Shown piece after piece: positions 1 to 5,839 of a stretch of 5,964 nt of DNA. Source of the stretch: Promethearchaeota archaeon (GTDB lineage: Archaea > Asgardarchaeota > Lokiarchaeia > Sigynarchaeales > SOKP01). How positions within the stretch are numbered: position 1 is the stretch's first letter; the number at the start of each line of letters is the position of its first letter. The stretch lies in NCBI GenBank assembly GCA_030608765.1, contig JAUWDN010000089.1, positions 1-5,964 on the forward strand, given 5' to 3'. Made by a program: the position numbers and the translations under genes. The notes below the pieces were generated by a model. That model saw nothing but the letters and a program-made list of their open reading frames with translations. It was not told the DNA's origin and made no database searches.

Positions 1-933
1 GAATATAATTATAACCATTACAATGTTTGTAGAAAAGCCTATTAGAAAAAAACTTACAAAAAACATTGCCAAACCTACTCGTATTGCATTACTCTCCCCA
101 AGTTTCTTTATTGTTGGTTTAAATAGCGTAAACCTTATACCTGCTCTAAATATTCCGGATATCATAAATAAGAACGCCATTTCAATAGGTGTGAGAAATA
201 ACACATCAGCACTGAAGAAAGATATGGAAGACATTACGATAGTGAAAGATATTGTATGAAATGCCCAAAGAAGTAGCAAGTAAAGAGCGTTTTTATTCTG
301 TCTAACTTTCAGTGTAAATTCAATTTTACTTTTATGGTAGTGAAGTCTCTTTTCCTTAGACCATGTTTCTTCCAGCATATATATAGTTACAAGAATTGTT
401 ATTACGGTCAAACCAGCTGCAAACAAGCCTGGTCCTAAAAGACCATAAAAAGTAAAGAGAAATCCACCAATTGCGGGTCCAATCAGGGAAGCTAAAACAT
501 ATGCTATACCAACATTAGCCATCTGAATACTTCTATCTTTTGACGGAACTTCATCGCTTATAATAGCTTTTGCTATTGGAAAATTTCCTCCAAACATCCC
601 ATCAATCATACGTGCAATGATTAACATCAATAAATTGTTTGAAAAAGCAGTTAATATAAAAGCTAAAAGCGTTCCATATTGAGAAATTAGCAATAGCGGT
701 TTTCTTCCATATTTATCGCTAAGTTTTGATAAAATGGGCCCAAAAACAAAACCGAACATCGCGTTTACAGAAAATATAAAACCGATTACAATTTTAGAGG
801 TTCCGAATAGGCCGCTAAAATATCCTACCATCGGAAAAAGAATCGTGAATCCCAGAACATCTATAAAAATGGCAATCCATAATGGCGCAAGCATTCGGTA
901 TTTAAACACTTTTCTGTTGTTGTTTTCAGTCAT
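1..933 (-). CDS. MFS transporter, drug-efflux (TetA/DHA1-like) type, 3' end outside window
   Basis: This is a membrane transporter of the major facilitator superfamily, probably a proton-coupled exporter of small molecules; the substrate cannot be read from the sequence. The frame is open for 311 residues from the ATG at 933 to the window edge, and an in-frame stop lies two codons upstream of that ATG. The protein begins MTENNNRKVFKYRMLAPLW. Family marks are the first-helix motif IDVLGFTILFPM (residues 24-35), motif A GPILSKLSDKYGRKP (65-79, with D73, G76 and R77), the fourth-helix R108 followed by DGMFGG, and a motif-C-like GIAYVLASLIGPAIGGFL (142-159). About nine to ten hydrophobic segments are visible, with a charged central loop near 189-215 that separates the two six-helix halves. 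Family members are usually about 390-420 residues, so roughly the last 80-110 are missing. A weak GTGAT ribosome-binding sequence precedes the start. It is transcribed divergently from the gelsolin-like gene. A sugar-phosphate or other MFS subfamily is possible but less likely. Confidence 0.9.
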   Translation of the reverse strand, partial: MTENNNRKVFKYRMLAPLWIAIFIDVLGFTILFPMVGYFSGLFGTSKIVIGFIFSVNAMFGFVFGPILSKLSDKYGRKPLLLISQYGTLLAFILTAFSNNLLMLIIARMIDGMFGGNFPIAKAIISDEVPSKDRSIQMANVGIAYVLASLIGPAIGGFLFTFYGLLGPGLFAAGLTVITILVTIYMLEETWSKEKRLHYHKSKIEFTLKVRQNKNALYLLLLWAFHTISFTIVMSSISFFSADVLFLTPIEMAFLFMISGIFRAGIRFTLFKPTIKKLGESNAIRVGLAMFFVSFFLIGFSTNIVMVIIIF

Positions 934-1223: not shown

Positions 1224-2354
1224 ATGATGGCTGAAACTTATGAGAACTTTATGATCTTTGGATTAGAAAGTACCGGTGAAAAGATAAAATTAGACATATC
1301 AGAAGATGAGTTTTGTGCTAATAACGGTCAGAACATATTGGACTCTCACCAAGTATTAGTGATAGTTAAGGAGGATTTAAGGAGAATTTACATCTGGAAA
1401 GGCGTAAATTCCCACGTTAGAAAAAAGTTCATCGCGTCTCGCATCGCTGCGGAATTACAAAATGATTTAGTCGTTAACAGCCACTTTCATCGATGTAAGA
1501 TTATTTCAGTAGATCAAGGGGATGAACCTAATGAATTTATGAGGTCCTTTAATTTTAAAGCAATTAAAGCTCCTGAGTTCTTAGAAAGAGATTCTGTAGA
1601 GTTTAAACAATTACATATGTCTTCTCTCAAGGAATCTGCAGAAACTAGCAATAAAAAAGTCCACGGATGGAAAGGTCTGCCTCCTTCACTGAAGGGTACA
1701 ACTAAATCTCAAGTAATTACAAAAAAGATAGATAAGAGCATTGCTCCTAAACCTAAACAATCAGTCAAACATCCCCAGTTAGACAATAAAAGAATTATTG
1801 ATAAAATCGTGAAAAATAAAGTTCCCGCGGATTTTAAAAGGCAAAATTTGATTTTAGGGAATTTTCAAATTTACGGAGCAACAGTCAAAAAAGCAAAAAT
1901 TTTCGGTAAAGAAGTTGAGGAAGTTGAATGGGAACCAGTTAACTCAATACCAGAAGGGCCAATTGAACTTACTGATCGAACTATAAGACTTTATATTAAC
2001 GGTAATTCTGGGACAATTGAAGGAATAGAAATACTCCAAAAACTAGATACACCCAAAACTGAAGAAAAAGCAATAGAAAAGAAAGAAGAAATAGATTACA
2101 ATTCCTGGACAGTAAGCAAGTTGAAGCTATACTGCAAAGAAAACAACATTACAGTTCCAACATCCTACAGAAAAGCACAAATTATTAACCTCATCCTGAG
2201 TGGACCACCTCAAGAAATCACGGAACAATGGCTTAATTATAACAAGTGGACGGTAAAACAACTAAAAGAATTTTGTAAAGAAAACGACATAAAGGTACTC
2301 TCCTCGTATAGGAAAGCAGACTTAATAAAACTCGTAAAAGAACATAAAAAATAA
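1224..2354 (+). CDS. Gelsolin-like domain protein with two C-terminal SAP/HeH repeats
   Basis: The protein has 376 residues (375 if the second ATG at 1227 is used), no signal peptide and no membrane segment, so it is probably cytoplasmic. Residues about 35-111 are a gelsolin-like domain: strand VLVIVKEDLRRIYIWKG (44-60), a long helix with RKKFIASRIAAEL (66-78), strand CKIISVDQGDEPNEF (91-105), then the RSFNF end typical of the fold. In eukaryotes and characterised Asgard proteins this fold binds actin and can sever, cap or bundle filaments. Residues 135-205 are a basic, probably disordered linker. Residues about 205-273 form an unrecognised compact module with DRTIRLYINGNSGTIEG (251-267). Residues 291-326 and 338-373 are two copies of a helix-extended-helix/SAP-like motif (WTV..LK..CKEN.I.V..SYRKA..I), a fold usually binding DNA or RNA. 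I infer a link between an actin-type cytoskeleton and nucleic acid or chromatin; this is not shown. It converges on the TPR gene. Confidence 0.85.
   Translation: MMAETYENFMIFGLESTGEKIKLDISEDEFCANNGQNILDSHQVLVIVKEDLRRIYIWKGVNSHVRKKFIASRIAAELQNDLVVNSHFHRCKIISVDQGDEPNEFMRSFNFKAIKAPEFLERDSVEFKQLHMSSLKESAETSNKKVHGWKGLPPSLKGTTKSQVITKKIDKSIAPKPKQSVKHPQLDNKRIIDKIVKNKVPADFKRQNLILGNFQIYGATVKKAKIFGKEVEEVEWEPVNSIPEGPIELTDRTIRLYINGNSGTIEGIEILQKLDTPKTEEKAIEKKEEIDYNSWTVSKLKLYCKENNITVPTSYRKAQIINLILSGPPQEITEQWLNYNKWTVKQLKEFCKENDIKVLSSYRKADLIKLVKEHKK
2098..2335 (+). repeat. Tandem SAP/HeH coding repeat within the gelsolin-like gene
   Basis: Residues 292-325 and 339-372 align without gaps at about 20 identical positions in 34, offset by 47 residues (141 bases). 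Shared positions include YN.WTV, LK, CKEN, I.V and SYRKA. The two copies differ at many synonymous and non-synonymous sites, so the duplication is old and kept by selection, not a recent slip. Confidence 0.85.
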
Positions 2355-2393: not shown

Positions 2394-5363
2394 CTAAGAA
2401 CTGGTTAATTCTTCAAAACTCTTCTCTAACTGTTCTAAATATGCTTTTCTTTTTCCAGGTATCACTTTTTCAGTTAAGATTTTTGCTTTATCGTGGCAGG
2501 TTGTAGCTTCCTCAAGCATCCCTAGACTTTTATAACATTTCGAGAGTTTTAAGAACGTATGAAACGCAAACCATCCCGTTGGATTCATCTCTAACGCTTG
2601 ATAAAACTTTTCTATTGCTGTTTTATACTCTTTAGCAAACATTAATATTTCACCGTAGGTATCGTATAGATTTGCTTCAAGTGGATCGAGTTTGATTGCT
2701 TTTTTAATTGTGTCTAAGGCTTTTTCGAATTTTTTTGAACTGCTTAGAAATATAGCTAGGTTGTTTAGCAGACCTACCGAGTCAGGGTAAACTTTAAGAC
2801 CTTCCTCAAGAATTTCAATACCTTTCACTGTGTTTCCCAACGCGTAGTATGAGAACGATTTCATCTGGCAAATAGTTTTATCTTCCTGAGGAAATTTCTC
2901 AATTAATTCATCGTAGAACTCTAATGCTTCGTCCTGCTTATCGTTATAAGTTATATATATATGAGCTTTTGTGCCATAAATATCGAAGTGTTCTGGACTT
3001 AACTCGATTGCTTTATCGATTGCTTTTATTGCCTCGTCATAACCATCTGTTTCGTTTAAGATATAACTTTCCAGTTGATAATACCTAGACAACTTCTTCT
3101 CGCTTTGTTCCATTTCTATTGCTTTTTGAAACTCTTCTCTAAATAGTTCTTTGTTCGCTTTACTTGAATCTAAATTATAGACGATGTTGAATCCGTGAAC
3201 TAAACCGGTAATAATGTGAGTAAGCGGGTGATTTGGATAGTGAAATCTAATCTTGCTAACAATATCTAAAGCTTTTTCAAATTTATTCCTAGCTAAATAT
3301 GAGAATGATAAAGTCAAATACGCGGCAGTGTCAACTCGGGGAGTTCCTTTAAGTAAATTGAATTCAACAGTTTGCTTAATCCAGTTTTTTGCTTCCTTAT
3401 GCTTATGAGTTACAGTGTATAATATCGCTTTCATTATAGAGAGTTCTGGATCGTCAGGATTCGAAGCTATAAGTGAATTTATCAAGTTCAAAGGTTCGTC
3501 AATAGTTTTTATACAACATTCTCTATCCGTTATCATGACTAGAAATTTCGTGCGTATTAAAGCAAAATTATCAGGAAAGTCTTCAATCACTTCATCCACG
3601 ACTTTTATTGCTTTGCTGTGATCATAATTAATGAGAATTTGTGCTTTTTGAGAGATCAACAAGACATTATATGACATGTTCAAGCCTAATTCAATAACAT
3701 CTAACGCGTCTTTGAATCTTCCCATCAAGAAATACGTAATAGATTGAAAAAGATACCCTACATATTTGTTAGGATGTTTTCTAATGATTTCCTTAGTTAA
3801 ATCCAGTGATTCTTCTAATTCTCCGTTATATGTGTAAATTAAATCCTTCAGGATCATCAGTTCAATATCGTTTAAATTCTTAAGATTATCCGTAAGCAGT
3901 TCGCTTACTTTCGATACTCTTCCTTTTGACAACTTATGCTCAATTTTCGTTAAAAACTCTCTATTTTTAGGAAAATATGTCTTTTTGAACTCAGCCATTC
4001 GGATGAAATCTATTTTCGATAAATACATTATGTCCAATGTATCAAAAATTCTATTATGCAAAAAGTAATAAGATTCATTGTCTACAGGTTTACTTATCGT
4101 ACTCGCCGTATCCGGTGTTCCAAAACTTTGAATTACTTCGAACACATTTTGAAACGCAATCCCCTTTATTTTATCTGTATGGTTGATTAAACTCTTCTCT
4201 GTTTCAAATTTATAAGCAAGATGTTCTATGTATTCTACCAAAAATTTCCTGAGGGCTGGTTTCAATTTTTCATCGAATAAATTACTACATAAATCTTTGA
4301 CGACATCGTCGAGTAATTGGTTGATATCAGGGGGATTATATTGATCTCCATTTTTTTTCTGGAACTTACTTAAATATGTGAATTTCCTAATATAGTCCTC
4401 GATAATTACGCTTAACATTTTTTCTAATCTCTCTTCAGCTTGGATGTAATATGTAATTTTATCGTCCACATTTAGTTTAAAGAATTTAATCGCATACAAC
4501 CTATCTTCTACGATTTTTTCTATAAAAAAGTTTAAGGTTGTCAGCTTTATATCGTACTCTAACGCAAAATCCTTAGCTGTAATATAATCAGGGTAGTTGT
4601 CAGGATGGTTTATTGATAAAAATAGCAAAATTTTATCAAAATCAACCTCATCTGACAAGGTGGCCTCGACCCTAGTATAATCTAACCTCAATACCATATT
4701 CAAGAAACGATATCTAATCTCATCGTCTTCTATTCCGTATTCGTCAAAGAATTTGCCTACCTTACCTGTAATAACTTCAACTCTTTTGCTTTCTTCGTTC
4801 AAAATGGATTGACGATCTAAGTCGTAATTCTTTAACATTTTGAAGTATTCTGTTTCACCGTCTCTTGTAATTCTATACTCACGATTATCTTTTTCAATTA
4901 GTTTTTTATCCAACAAAAGATTCAAATTTTTCGATAATGAAGATTGATTGATTGAAAGAGGAGACTCAATAAAATCTGACCACTTACAATACACATTATT
5001 GTAAAGCATCCAAAGAATCCAGTGATCGTATTCCCTAATTTTTGTAATAACCTCAGGAGGATAGTTCAAAGAAGTTTCTAATGAACCCTTAACCTGTAAC
5101 TCAGCATATTGCATACGACCTTCAGAAGTTATCCTATACTCTCCCTTCTTTTCCTTCTCAATAAGACCATTACTTATTAAAATATTTAGGTATTTTGATA
5201 ATGTCGCTGGGCTTATGTTGACAGGCTTCGACTTGAACTCTGACCAAGTGCAGTATTCGTTGTTATAGAGCATCCAAAGTATAATATATTCAAAATCTTT
5301 GTTGATTTTCATAGGTGTAATTATACCTTCTGGGGGGTATTTTGTTAATTTTGTTATACTCAT
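2394..5363 (-). CDS. Tandem winged-helix and tetratricopeptide-repeat protein
   Basis: With the start at 5363 the protein has 989 residues, beginning MSITKLTKYPPE. Residues about 21-89 and 111-174 are two homologous winged helix-turn-helix domains, each opening with YPPE and carrying ILWMLYNN.YC.WS.F, a recognition-helix region with LSK.LN.L and a wing EYRIT..G. A probable third, diverged winged helix covers about 261-316 (ITAKDFALEYDIKLTTLNFF). The middle to about residue 500 is helical and unassigned. From about 501 to 964 there are some 13 TPR-like units; the best are KFEKALDTIKKAIKLDPLE and YKTAIEKFYQALEMNPTG near the end. TPRs form a superhelical protein-binding surface. There is no signal peptide or membrane helix. 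The design suggests a cytoplasmic DNA-binding regulator or scaffold; large proteins of this kind are, to my knowledge, common in Lokiarchaeia-like genomes. A longer frame starts at ATG 5435, but a TATA box at 5385-5393 sits 26 bases before 5363 and the longer N-terminus would be encoded by an inverted repeat. The target and partner are unknown. Confidence 0.88.
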   Translation of the reverse strand: MSITKLTKYPPEGIITPMKINKDFEYIILWMLYNNEYCTWSEFKSKPVNISPATLSKYLNILISNGLIEKEKKGEYRITSEGRMQYAELQVKGSLETSLNYPPEVITKIREYDHWILWMLYNNVYCKWSDFIESPLSINQSSLSKNLNLLLDKKLIEKDNREYRITRDGETEYFKMLKNYDLDRQSILNEESKRVEVITGKVGKFFDEYGIEDDEIRYRFLNMVLRLDYTRVEATLSDEVDFDKILLFLSINHPDNYPDYITAKDFALEYDIKLTTLNFFIEKIVEDRLYAIKFFKLNVDDKITYYIQAEERLEKMLSVIIEDYIRKFTYLSKFQKKNGDQYNPPDINQLLDDVVKDLCSNLFDEKLKPALRKFLVEYIEHLAYKFETEKSLINHTDKIKGIAFQNVFEVIQSFGTPDTASTISKPVDNESYYFLHNRIFDTLDIMYLSKIDFIRMAEFKKTYFPKNREFLTKIEHKLSKGRVSKVSELLTDNLKNLNDIELMILKDLIYTYNGELEESLDLTKEIIRKHPNKYVGYLFQSITYFLMGRFKDALDVIELGLNMSYNVLLISQKAQILINYDHSKAIKVVDEVIEDFPDNFALIRTKFLVMITDRECCIKTIDEPLNLINSLIASNPDDPELSIMKAILYTVTHKHKEAKNWIKQTVEFNLLKGTPRVDTAAYLTLSFSYLARNKFEKALDIVSKIRFHYPNHPLTHIITGLVHGFNIVYNLDSSKANKELFREEFQKAIEMEQSEKKLSRYYQLESYILNETDGYDEAIKAIDKAIELSPEHFDIYGTKAHIYITYNDKQDEALEFYDELIEKFPQEDKTICQMKSFSYYALGNTVKGIEILEEGLKVYPDSVGLLNNLAIFLSSSKKFEKALDTIKKAIKLDPLEANLYDTYGEILMFAKEYKTAIEKFYQALEMNPTGWFAFHTFLKLSKCYKSLGMLEEATTCHDKAKILTEKVIPGKRKAYLEQLEKSFEELTSS
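2444..2484 (+). terminator. Possible T-tract terminator of the gelsolin-like gene
   Basis: The plus strand just after the gelsolin-like stop is A-rich, not T-rich, so its first candidate T-tracts (2445-2454 with one C, 2466-2470, 2480-2484) lie about 90-130 bases downstream, inside the 3' end of the opposing TPR gene. If used, the two transcripts would overlap tail to tail. The tracts are short and may simply reflect lysine codons of the opposite gene. Confidence 0.25.
4770..5339 (-). repeat. Internal duplication of the winged-helix domain
   Basis: The two N-terminal winged-helix modules repeat with a 92-residue (276-base) offset, judged from the YPPE motifs. Shared features are ILWMLYNN, YC.WS.F, SLSK/TLSK, LIEK, EYRIT and a following G..(E/Q)Y. 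Substantial divergence at the DNA level shows an old duplication. Two recognition helices in tandem suggest binding to a pseudo-symmetric or direct-repeat operator. Confidence 0.8.
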
Positions 5364-5384
5364 ATTTAAACAATAACTTTGTAA

Positions 5385-5393
5385 CTTTATAAA
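5385..5393 (-). promoter_or_regulatory. TATA box of the TPR/winged-helix gene
   Basis: The minus strand reads TTTATAAAG, a near-ideal archaeal TATA box. Its centre (5389) lies 26 bases upstream of the ATG at 5363, so transcription should begin at or next to that ATG and yield a leaderless message. No Shine-Dalgarno sequence precedes 5363, in agreement with this. The position decides the start codon choice. Confidence 0.65.
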
Positions 5394-5409
5394 TATTATG
5401 TTCGCACTA

Positions 5410-5433
5410 AACTTCGAAGTTCGTTCGAACTTC
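5410..5433. promoter_or_regulatory. Overlapping inverted repeats, candidate operator
   Basis: Two perfect palindromes overlap here: AACTTCGAAGTT (5410-5421) and GAAGTTCGTTCGAACTTC (5416-5433, 8-base arms around TT). The block lies 47-70 bases upstream of the proposed TPR gene start, outside its TATA box, and also upstream of TATA-like sequences for the divergent small gene. The clustered TTCGAA cores in otherwise A+T-rich DNA suggest a binding site for a dimeric regulator, perhaps the winged-helix protein itself. A transcribed hairpin is a weaker alternative. Confidence 0.55.
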
Positions 5434-5439
5434 ATAAAG

Positions 5440-5535: not shown

Positions 5536-5544
5536 GGATGTGAT
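5536..5544 (+). promoter_or_regulatory. Shine-Dalgarno site that sets the start of the small gene
   Basis: GGATGTGAT differs by one base from the ideal GGAGGTGAT complement of the 16S rRNA 3' end. It ends seven bases before the ATG at 5552, a normal distance. The in-frame GTG at 5540 lies inside this site and so cannot be served by it, which favours ATG 5552 as the start. Confidence 0.7.
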
Positions 5545-5551
5545 TAGAAAA

Positions 5552-5839
5552 ATGGCCCAAGCAATAGTAAAAAAGCAAGCCGAGGAAAAAACCGCCACCA
5601 TCGATAGCCAAGTTTTATTCCAACTCCAAGCGCCTGAGGTGTTAAAGCCTCAGGTGCTGGTCAAGGAGGCAGCGCTGGAAAACCTTGAATCACAATCGAT
5701 AAAAAAGAAGCTTAGGAAAGTGTTTAATAAAGTTAAATTGAACGCGAAAATTACCGAGGAAGTCAAATGTATCAACGCTGTGAATGCGAACCTTGACGCG
5801 AAAATTTTGGCGTATAGAAATAACCTAATCAAATTTTAA
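5552..5839 (+). CDS. Small basic protein of unknown function
   Basis: I do not recognise this 95-residue protein, which begins MAQAIVKKQAEEK. Support for it being a real gene is a strong Shine-Dalgarno sequence with correct spacing, a higher G+C content than the surrounding spacers, and a second gene with its own ribosome binding site following after 75 bases. It has no signal peptide, no membrane helix and no metal-binding cluster (one cysteine only). Residues about 27-36 hold a short imperfect repeat, APEVLKPQVL. The C-terminal half (about 50-95) is rich in K, N, L and A and looks helical and basic, with KKKLRKVFNKVKLNAKI near 51-67, which could bind nucleic acid or a membrane surface. An in-frame GTG at 5540 would add four residues but overlaps the ribosome binding site. 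A minus-strand frame over the same bases has no ribosome binding site and is rejected. Abundance might be high given the leader and site quality, but that is inference. Confidence 0.65.
   Translation: MAQAIVKKQAEEKTATIDSQVLFQLQAPEVLKPQVLVKEAALENLESQSIKKKLRKVFNKVKLNAKITEEVKCINAVNANLDAKILAYRNNLIKF
5633..5654 (+). repeat. Small inverted repeat inside the small gene
   Basis: CCTGAGG (5633-5639) pairs with CCTCAGG (5648-5654) across an 8-base loop. It coincides with the codons of the PEVLKPQVL peptide repeat, so it may be a by-product of that repeat and not a functional hairpin. Confidence 0.4.

Follow-up and report, generated by a model that had tools for sequence, protein, structure and literature searches.

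A gelsolin-like protein of Lokiarchaeia with an additional domain and a tandem SAP/HeH tail

Asgard actins and their regulators attract attention as precursors of the cytoskeleton of eukaryotes, and a locus from a Promethearchaeota archaeon (assembly GCA_030608765.1, contig JAUWDN010000089.1) raises the question of whether an archaeal actin system could touch the genome. The window, i.e. the whole stretch of 5,964 nucleotides that was analysed, encodes a protein joining a gelsolin-like domain to SAP/HeH motifs, which makes a concrete test of this question possible. The initial annotation had suggested that such a protein could tether filaments to the chromosome, to RNA or to ribosomes.

Architecture and distribution

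The gene, its parts and its direct neighbours are the following (window coordinates, strand, and supporting evidence in brackets):

1..933, minus strand: MFS transporter, divergent neighbour, cut by the window end (Pfam, locus comparison)
1224..2354, plus strand: whole gene, 376 aa, gelsolin - linker - X - SAP - SAP (ORF, Pfam, predicted structure, homologues)
1245..1553, plus strand: gelsolin domain, residues 8-110 (Pfam, sequence matches, structure, conservation)
1416..1481, plus strand: long helix within the gelsolin domain, residues 65-86 (predicted structure, alignment)
1554..1778, plus strand: variable linker, residues 111-185 (conservation; 133-184 predicted disordered)
1653..1691, plus strand: short conserved linker motif, W149 and P153-P154 (alignment)
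1779..2051, plus strand: domain X, residues 186-276, one helix and five strands (structure prediction)
2094..2201, plus strand: SAP/HeH motif 1, residues 291-326 (Pfam, predicted structure)
2235..2351, plus strand: SAP/HeH motif 2, residues 338-376 (Pfam, predicted structure)
2394..5435, minus strand: convergent neighbour, 1013 aa, with N-terminal winged-helix matches and TPR repeats (Pfam, locus comparison)

As annotated initially, a gelsolin-type domain and two C-terminal repeats lie in one frame, and Pfam, the homologues and structure prediction confirmed this make-up. The protein had been wrongly taken for a two-part fusion because domain X was overlooked, and its architecture is gelsolin - linker - X - SAP - SAP. 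The fusion is conserved, both repeats being present in the best 120 of the 578 homologues obtained for the double-SAP protein at E ≤ 1e-3 (window included). Among 98 double-SAP sequences, the gelsolin domain was the most conserved part of the protein, with a mean frequency of the commonest residue of 0.88, followed by SAP2 (0.81), X (0.80), SAP1 (0.78) and the linkers (0.58-0.62). Chance or an assembly artefact was rejected as an explanation, given the full architecture of those best 120 of 578 homologues and an intact gene in eight MAG loci, where the same neighbours were found as far as the contigs reach (with one extra ORF between the gene and its neighbour in L006 and L007).

The Asgard origin of the gene was also borne out, since all eight named genome loci belong to Lokiarchaeota/Lokiarchaeia; a wider attribution of the double-SAP form to Lokiarchaeia is tentative. 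Names among the best 120 of the 578 matches, where given, were Lokiarchaeota, Promethearchaeota and one Hermodarchaeota. Some match was found in 202 of the 227 genomes of the phylum (E ≤ 1e-5), and in 11 of the 227 a match spanned nearly the whole protein, starting at residue 1-2 and ending at 375-376; in G140, one of these 11, it contains an in-frame stop. A mixed profile, A3, was run on 58 genomes, all drawn from the 202 with matches, and hit every one of them at E ≤ 1e-12. When 379 sequences, a partly redundant sample of non-random choice, were sorted by architecture, 139 had the full gelsolin-X-SAP-SAP make-up, 20 had a single SAP after gelsolin and X, and 211 consisted of gelsolin-X; gelsolin was the sole domain in 7, and SAP in 2. 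The family uniting gelsolin and X (hereafter gelsolin+X) is Asgard-wide, and its SAP-tailed paralogue is known, in named genomes, from Lokiarchaeia only. Viral contigs were searched for relatives as well: 85 stretches fitted the pattern and none was confirmed, so a viral origin was discarded.

The gelsolin domain, domain X and the tail

Pfam recognized one gelsolin repeat (PF00626, residues 39-106) with 21.4 bits, against a cut-off of 21, and in six relatives the same model scored above the cut-off in L056 and L010, below it in L014 and L047, and gave no gelsolin match in L060 and L062. The assignment is independent of this marginal score, because profile A3, made from 15 diverse relatives, reached Loki2DGel (E 1.7e-18), ProGel (3.3e-17) and a villin (7.2e-10). 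The nearest solved sequence was the gelsolin-like 7c2f (E 3.1e-6), from the Thorarchaeota ProGel/actin complex, and the predicted structure was a gelsolin fold closest to ProGel, itself solved in complex with rabbit actin. With both the profile match and the predicted fold found, the gelsolin identity of the N-terminal domain held up.

Residues Q43, R66, K67, K68, H89, R90, C91, D97, G99 and E101 were invariant in the double-SAP set (98/98). In all 98 sequences, Q43 and K67 align with an Asp and a Glu of Loki2DGel domain 1, which we take to be type-II calcium ligands. At these presumed ligand positions, the acidic residues of calcium-regulated gelsolins are absent (Q43, K67), and this replacement suggests calcium independence. 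Of 15 diverse gelsolin+X proteins, 7 have D or E at position 43, so that some relatives may keep the ligand there; position 66 is Arg in 13 and position 67 is basic in 14. In the alignment, the long helix also differs from that of a proven actin binder, reading VRKKF here versus VDEKT in Loki2DGel. The presence of one gelsolin domain per protein, versus two or more in 2DGel and gelsolin, together with the replaced acidic residues, counts against a classical gelsolin role, and we propose that the long basic helix of the domain could mediate binding to an actin-family protein with no requirement for calcium.

Inside the variable, predicted disordered linker we observed a nearly invariant W/PP motif that could be a binding motif: in the double-SAP set, W149 and P154 were present in 98 of 98 sequences, K144 in 96, G151 in 95 and P153 in 94. 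Domain X was predicted as a confident fold (pLDDT 92); a Pfam search with X from the window gave no match and no clear relative was found in the PDB. Its own profile matched 187 of the 227 genomes of the phylum at E ≤ 1e-6. X could serve as a structural or partner-binding module.

Motifs of the SAP/HeH class mostly bind nucleic acid, and LEM motifs bind proteins. The two tail stretches matched HeH, Ish1, Rho_N and SAP about equally, with whole-protein scores above all four Pfam cut-offs, and these scores do not separate SAP from HeH/LEM, Ish1 or Rho_N. A helix-extended-helix was predicted in both motifs (helices 297-306/317-325 and 344-353/364-375), so the fold initially assigned to the repeats stood. 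The two motifs would anchor the protein to DNA or RNA, although the equal scores of HeH/LEM, Ish1 and Rho_N also fit a LEM-like protein-binding module, or binding to RNA or ribosomes, with no chromosome role. This alternative seems decidedly unlikely to us, the tail being net basic (16 K+R versus 9 D+E) and no LEM partner being known to us in archaea. Solved relatives of the tail were weak, such as 1jjr, entitled 'thyroid autoantigen' (E 0.36), presumably the SAP domain of Ku70. A HeH scan of 7 genomes (E ≤ 1e-3) yielded 9 matches in 5 of them, of which 6 fell in gelsolin+X genes; a single match exceeded the curated cut-off. Against this, a whole-protein search of genome G001 returned four SAP-like matches in other proteins (contigs G001:C222, G001:C111 and G001:C14), so such tails are not confined to the gelsolin+X family, and SAP may be a more general addition in Lokiarchaeal proteins.

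Neighbouring genes and descent

Around the double-SAP gene, a relative of the MFS transporter was found upstream in 7 of the 8 loci L001-L008 (the stretch of L005 does not reach far enough), and a relative of the winged-helix TPR protein downstream, on the opposite strand, in all 8. These conserved neighbours reflect shared descent and do not prove joint function; an operon with the direct neighbours was rejected, since both of them, MFS and TPR, are encoded on the opposite strand. A small ORF of 99 aa (5540-5839, plus strand), with a HEPN match below the cut-off, has counterparts at the corresponding position in 6 of the 8 loci.

MRTF proteins of animals combine RPEL actin-binding motifs with a SAP domain, and thus likewise pair SAP with a module of an actin-binding kind; MRTF, SAP domain, RPEL and G-actin are named together in the literature consulted. 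By analogy, the protein might be an MRTF-like actin-sensing regulator, whose gelsolin domain would read free actin and whose SAP motifs would target genes, so that expression would follow the actin state. The conserved convergent neighbour with winged-helix matches would fit such a regulator. However, that neighbour lies on the other strand, and hence not in one operon with the gene, and the protein is not known to have an activation domain. The likeness to MRTF-A/B is an analogy only, as these bind actin by RPEL motifs and have neither a gelsolin domain nor X, and altogether we judge this regulator quite improbable.

In a tree of 66 sequences, built on gelsolin + X, the double-SAP proteins formed a single clade (support 100) whose sister was the single-SAP protein L027 (support 100); eleven further single-SAP proteins made up the next branch (support 98). 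A second branch contained other single-SAP proteins and SAP-less ones (among them L010 and L065), several of its inner nodes being weak (37-58), and the two SAP-containing branches were joined with support 94. According to this topology, SAP was either gained once and then lost in some proteins, or gained repeatedly. L081, which is the L027 gene with more flank, has an MFS gene upstream, pieces of the TPR protein downstream and one SAP; as this single-SAP gene shares the synteny of the double-SAP genes, the second SAP was probably added at the MFS/TPR locus. The protein is a paralogue within the Asgard-wide gelsolin+X family.

No roadblock gene was found near the SAP-bearing copies in 25 loci (9 double-SAP including the window, 16 single-SAP; stretches of 3.5-21 kb), and no actin gene was noticed beside the SAP-bearing gene in the loci inspected by eye. 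Among SAP-less loci, a roadblock gene followed directly downstream on the same strand in 42 of 60, a count that is not a random-sample fraction because the loci were chosen by profile score or, in the batch of 19, after X or actin hits. The gap ranged from -4 to 264 bases and was ≤ 7 bases in 8 of the 42; the remaining 18 loci had no roadblock gene. The three batches behind these figures gave 10/22, 19/19 and 14/20; a locus counted twice was removed, and L088, which has no gelsolin+X gene, was dropped.

One batch comprised 19 loci, and 15 of these carried an actin-family gene downstream of gelsolin+X and roadblock; the four loci without it were L096 and L099 (≤ 4 kb) and L089 and L091 (11-12 kb). 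Actin-family genes were found in 11 of 11 genomes tested. The conserved cluster, observed in several genomes of the phylum, G001 among them (L082-L087, L090, L092-L095, L097, L098, L100 and L101), consists of gelsolin+X, roadblock, a VWA protein of ~750 aa (missing in L093 and L094), a MazE/ACT-like protein of ~134 aa, a protein of ~240 aa, a divergent actin-family protein and a CHAT protein (~860 aa where complete). Its domains were assigned by Pfam in L098 only, where VWA, Actin, CHAT and roadblock scored above the cut-off, and ACT, MazE and PLD-like below it. Elsewhere, gelsolin+X was seen by eye near gyrase-like genes (L060, L061, L064), in two cases (L060, L064) with a nearby protein starting with a SAP-like motif.

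The main rival to an actin-based role is roadblock/GTPase signalling: the gelsolin domain would have lost actin binding, gelsolin+X would partner roadblock proteins or small GTPases, and the SAP form would be a signalling adaptor on nucleic acid or another protein. The roadblock gene beside the 42 SAP-less copies speaks for it, as do the replaced presumed calcium ligands, a Ras-family gene near L056 (Pfam) with a relative near L057, and L119, where gelsolin+X lies beside two GTPase-like genes (by eye) without a roadblock gene. The retained gelsolin fold and the actin-family gene in the 15 of 19 clusters argue against it, and on balance we find it unlikely. Given its fold and the linkage of its relatives to an actin homologue, the gelsolin domain most likely serves to bind an actin-family protein, and the linkage of SAP-less relatives to roadblock and, in one batch, to an actin-family gene lends indirect support to a cytoskeletal role.

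Proposed role and relation to known proteins

Taking these data together, we tentatively infer that the protein might be a calcium-independent adaptor with a single gelsolin domain, joining an actin-family protein to DNA or to RNA and standing in for the roadblock partner with which many SAP-less copies are associated; with somewhat less than an even chance, this is a possible reading. Against it weigh the marginal Pfam gelsolin score, the helix difference from Loki2DGel, the tail's inseparable model scores and weak solved relatives, the SAP-like stretches in other proteins of G001, the SAP-bearing loci with neither roadblock nor a noticed actin gene, and the SAP-less loci that lack a roadblock or actin gene. 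That it represents a Lokiarchaeia protein class coupling an actin-family protein to the chromosome, through SAP motifs added to a gelsolin+X adaptor whose usual partners would be roadblock and an actin homologue, appears doubtful. If true, archaea would possess an equivalent of the coupling between actin and genome that, to our knowledge, has been described in eukaryotes only.

The gelsolin+X core is probably already known, since PMC9433394 names Asgard 1DGelX proteins (two in MK-D1, three in GC14_75) and PMC6393860 describes a divergent gelsolin family, cluster cls.008013 (Lokiarch_14920, 'Related to Villin-1/gelsolin'), present in 7 of 8 Asgard genomes and annotated as hypothetical owing to divergence. 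The name 1DGelX, which among the papers searched occurs in PMC9433394 only, hints at a single gelsolin domain with something added, so that gelsolin+X, whose architecture fits, is perhaps the same; the portions consulted mention no SAP tail for 1DGelX, and neither SAP tail nor domain X for cls.008013. The Thorarchaeota ProGel (PDB 7c2f) is a 94-residue chain without X or SAP tail. Asgard 2DGel proteins (PDB 7whg, 7whf, 7c2g, 7c2h) have gelsolin domains related by sequence to the one described here, but contain two of them and are calcium-controlled, and C-terminal extensions are reported for the Loki and Heim 2DGel, the Loki one being a linker with a possible zinc domain and not SAP (PMC9433394, in part). 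A review (PMC12993045), in the part consulted, treats gelsolin in general terms. We found no SAP-tailed gelsolin in the literature searched, which included few subscription papers, and no paper there linking Lokiarchaeal actin and chromatin with a SAP domain; nor was a published actin/roadblock/gelsolin cluster recognized among titles and starts of abstracts.

The wider family offers candidate partners (roadblock, the actin homologue, the VWA protein and the CHAT protein), as well as the conserved domain X, for which Pfam and PDB searches gave no clear relative. In addition, frames of 413-448 aa with one gelsolin and two X matches were observed on contigs G157:C10, G154:C19, G103:C130, G156:C271 and G102:C228.
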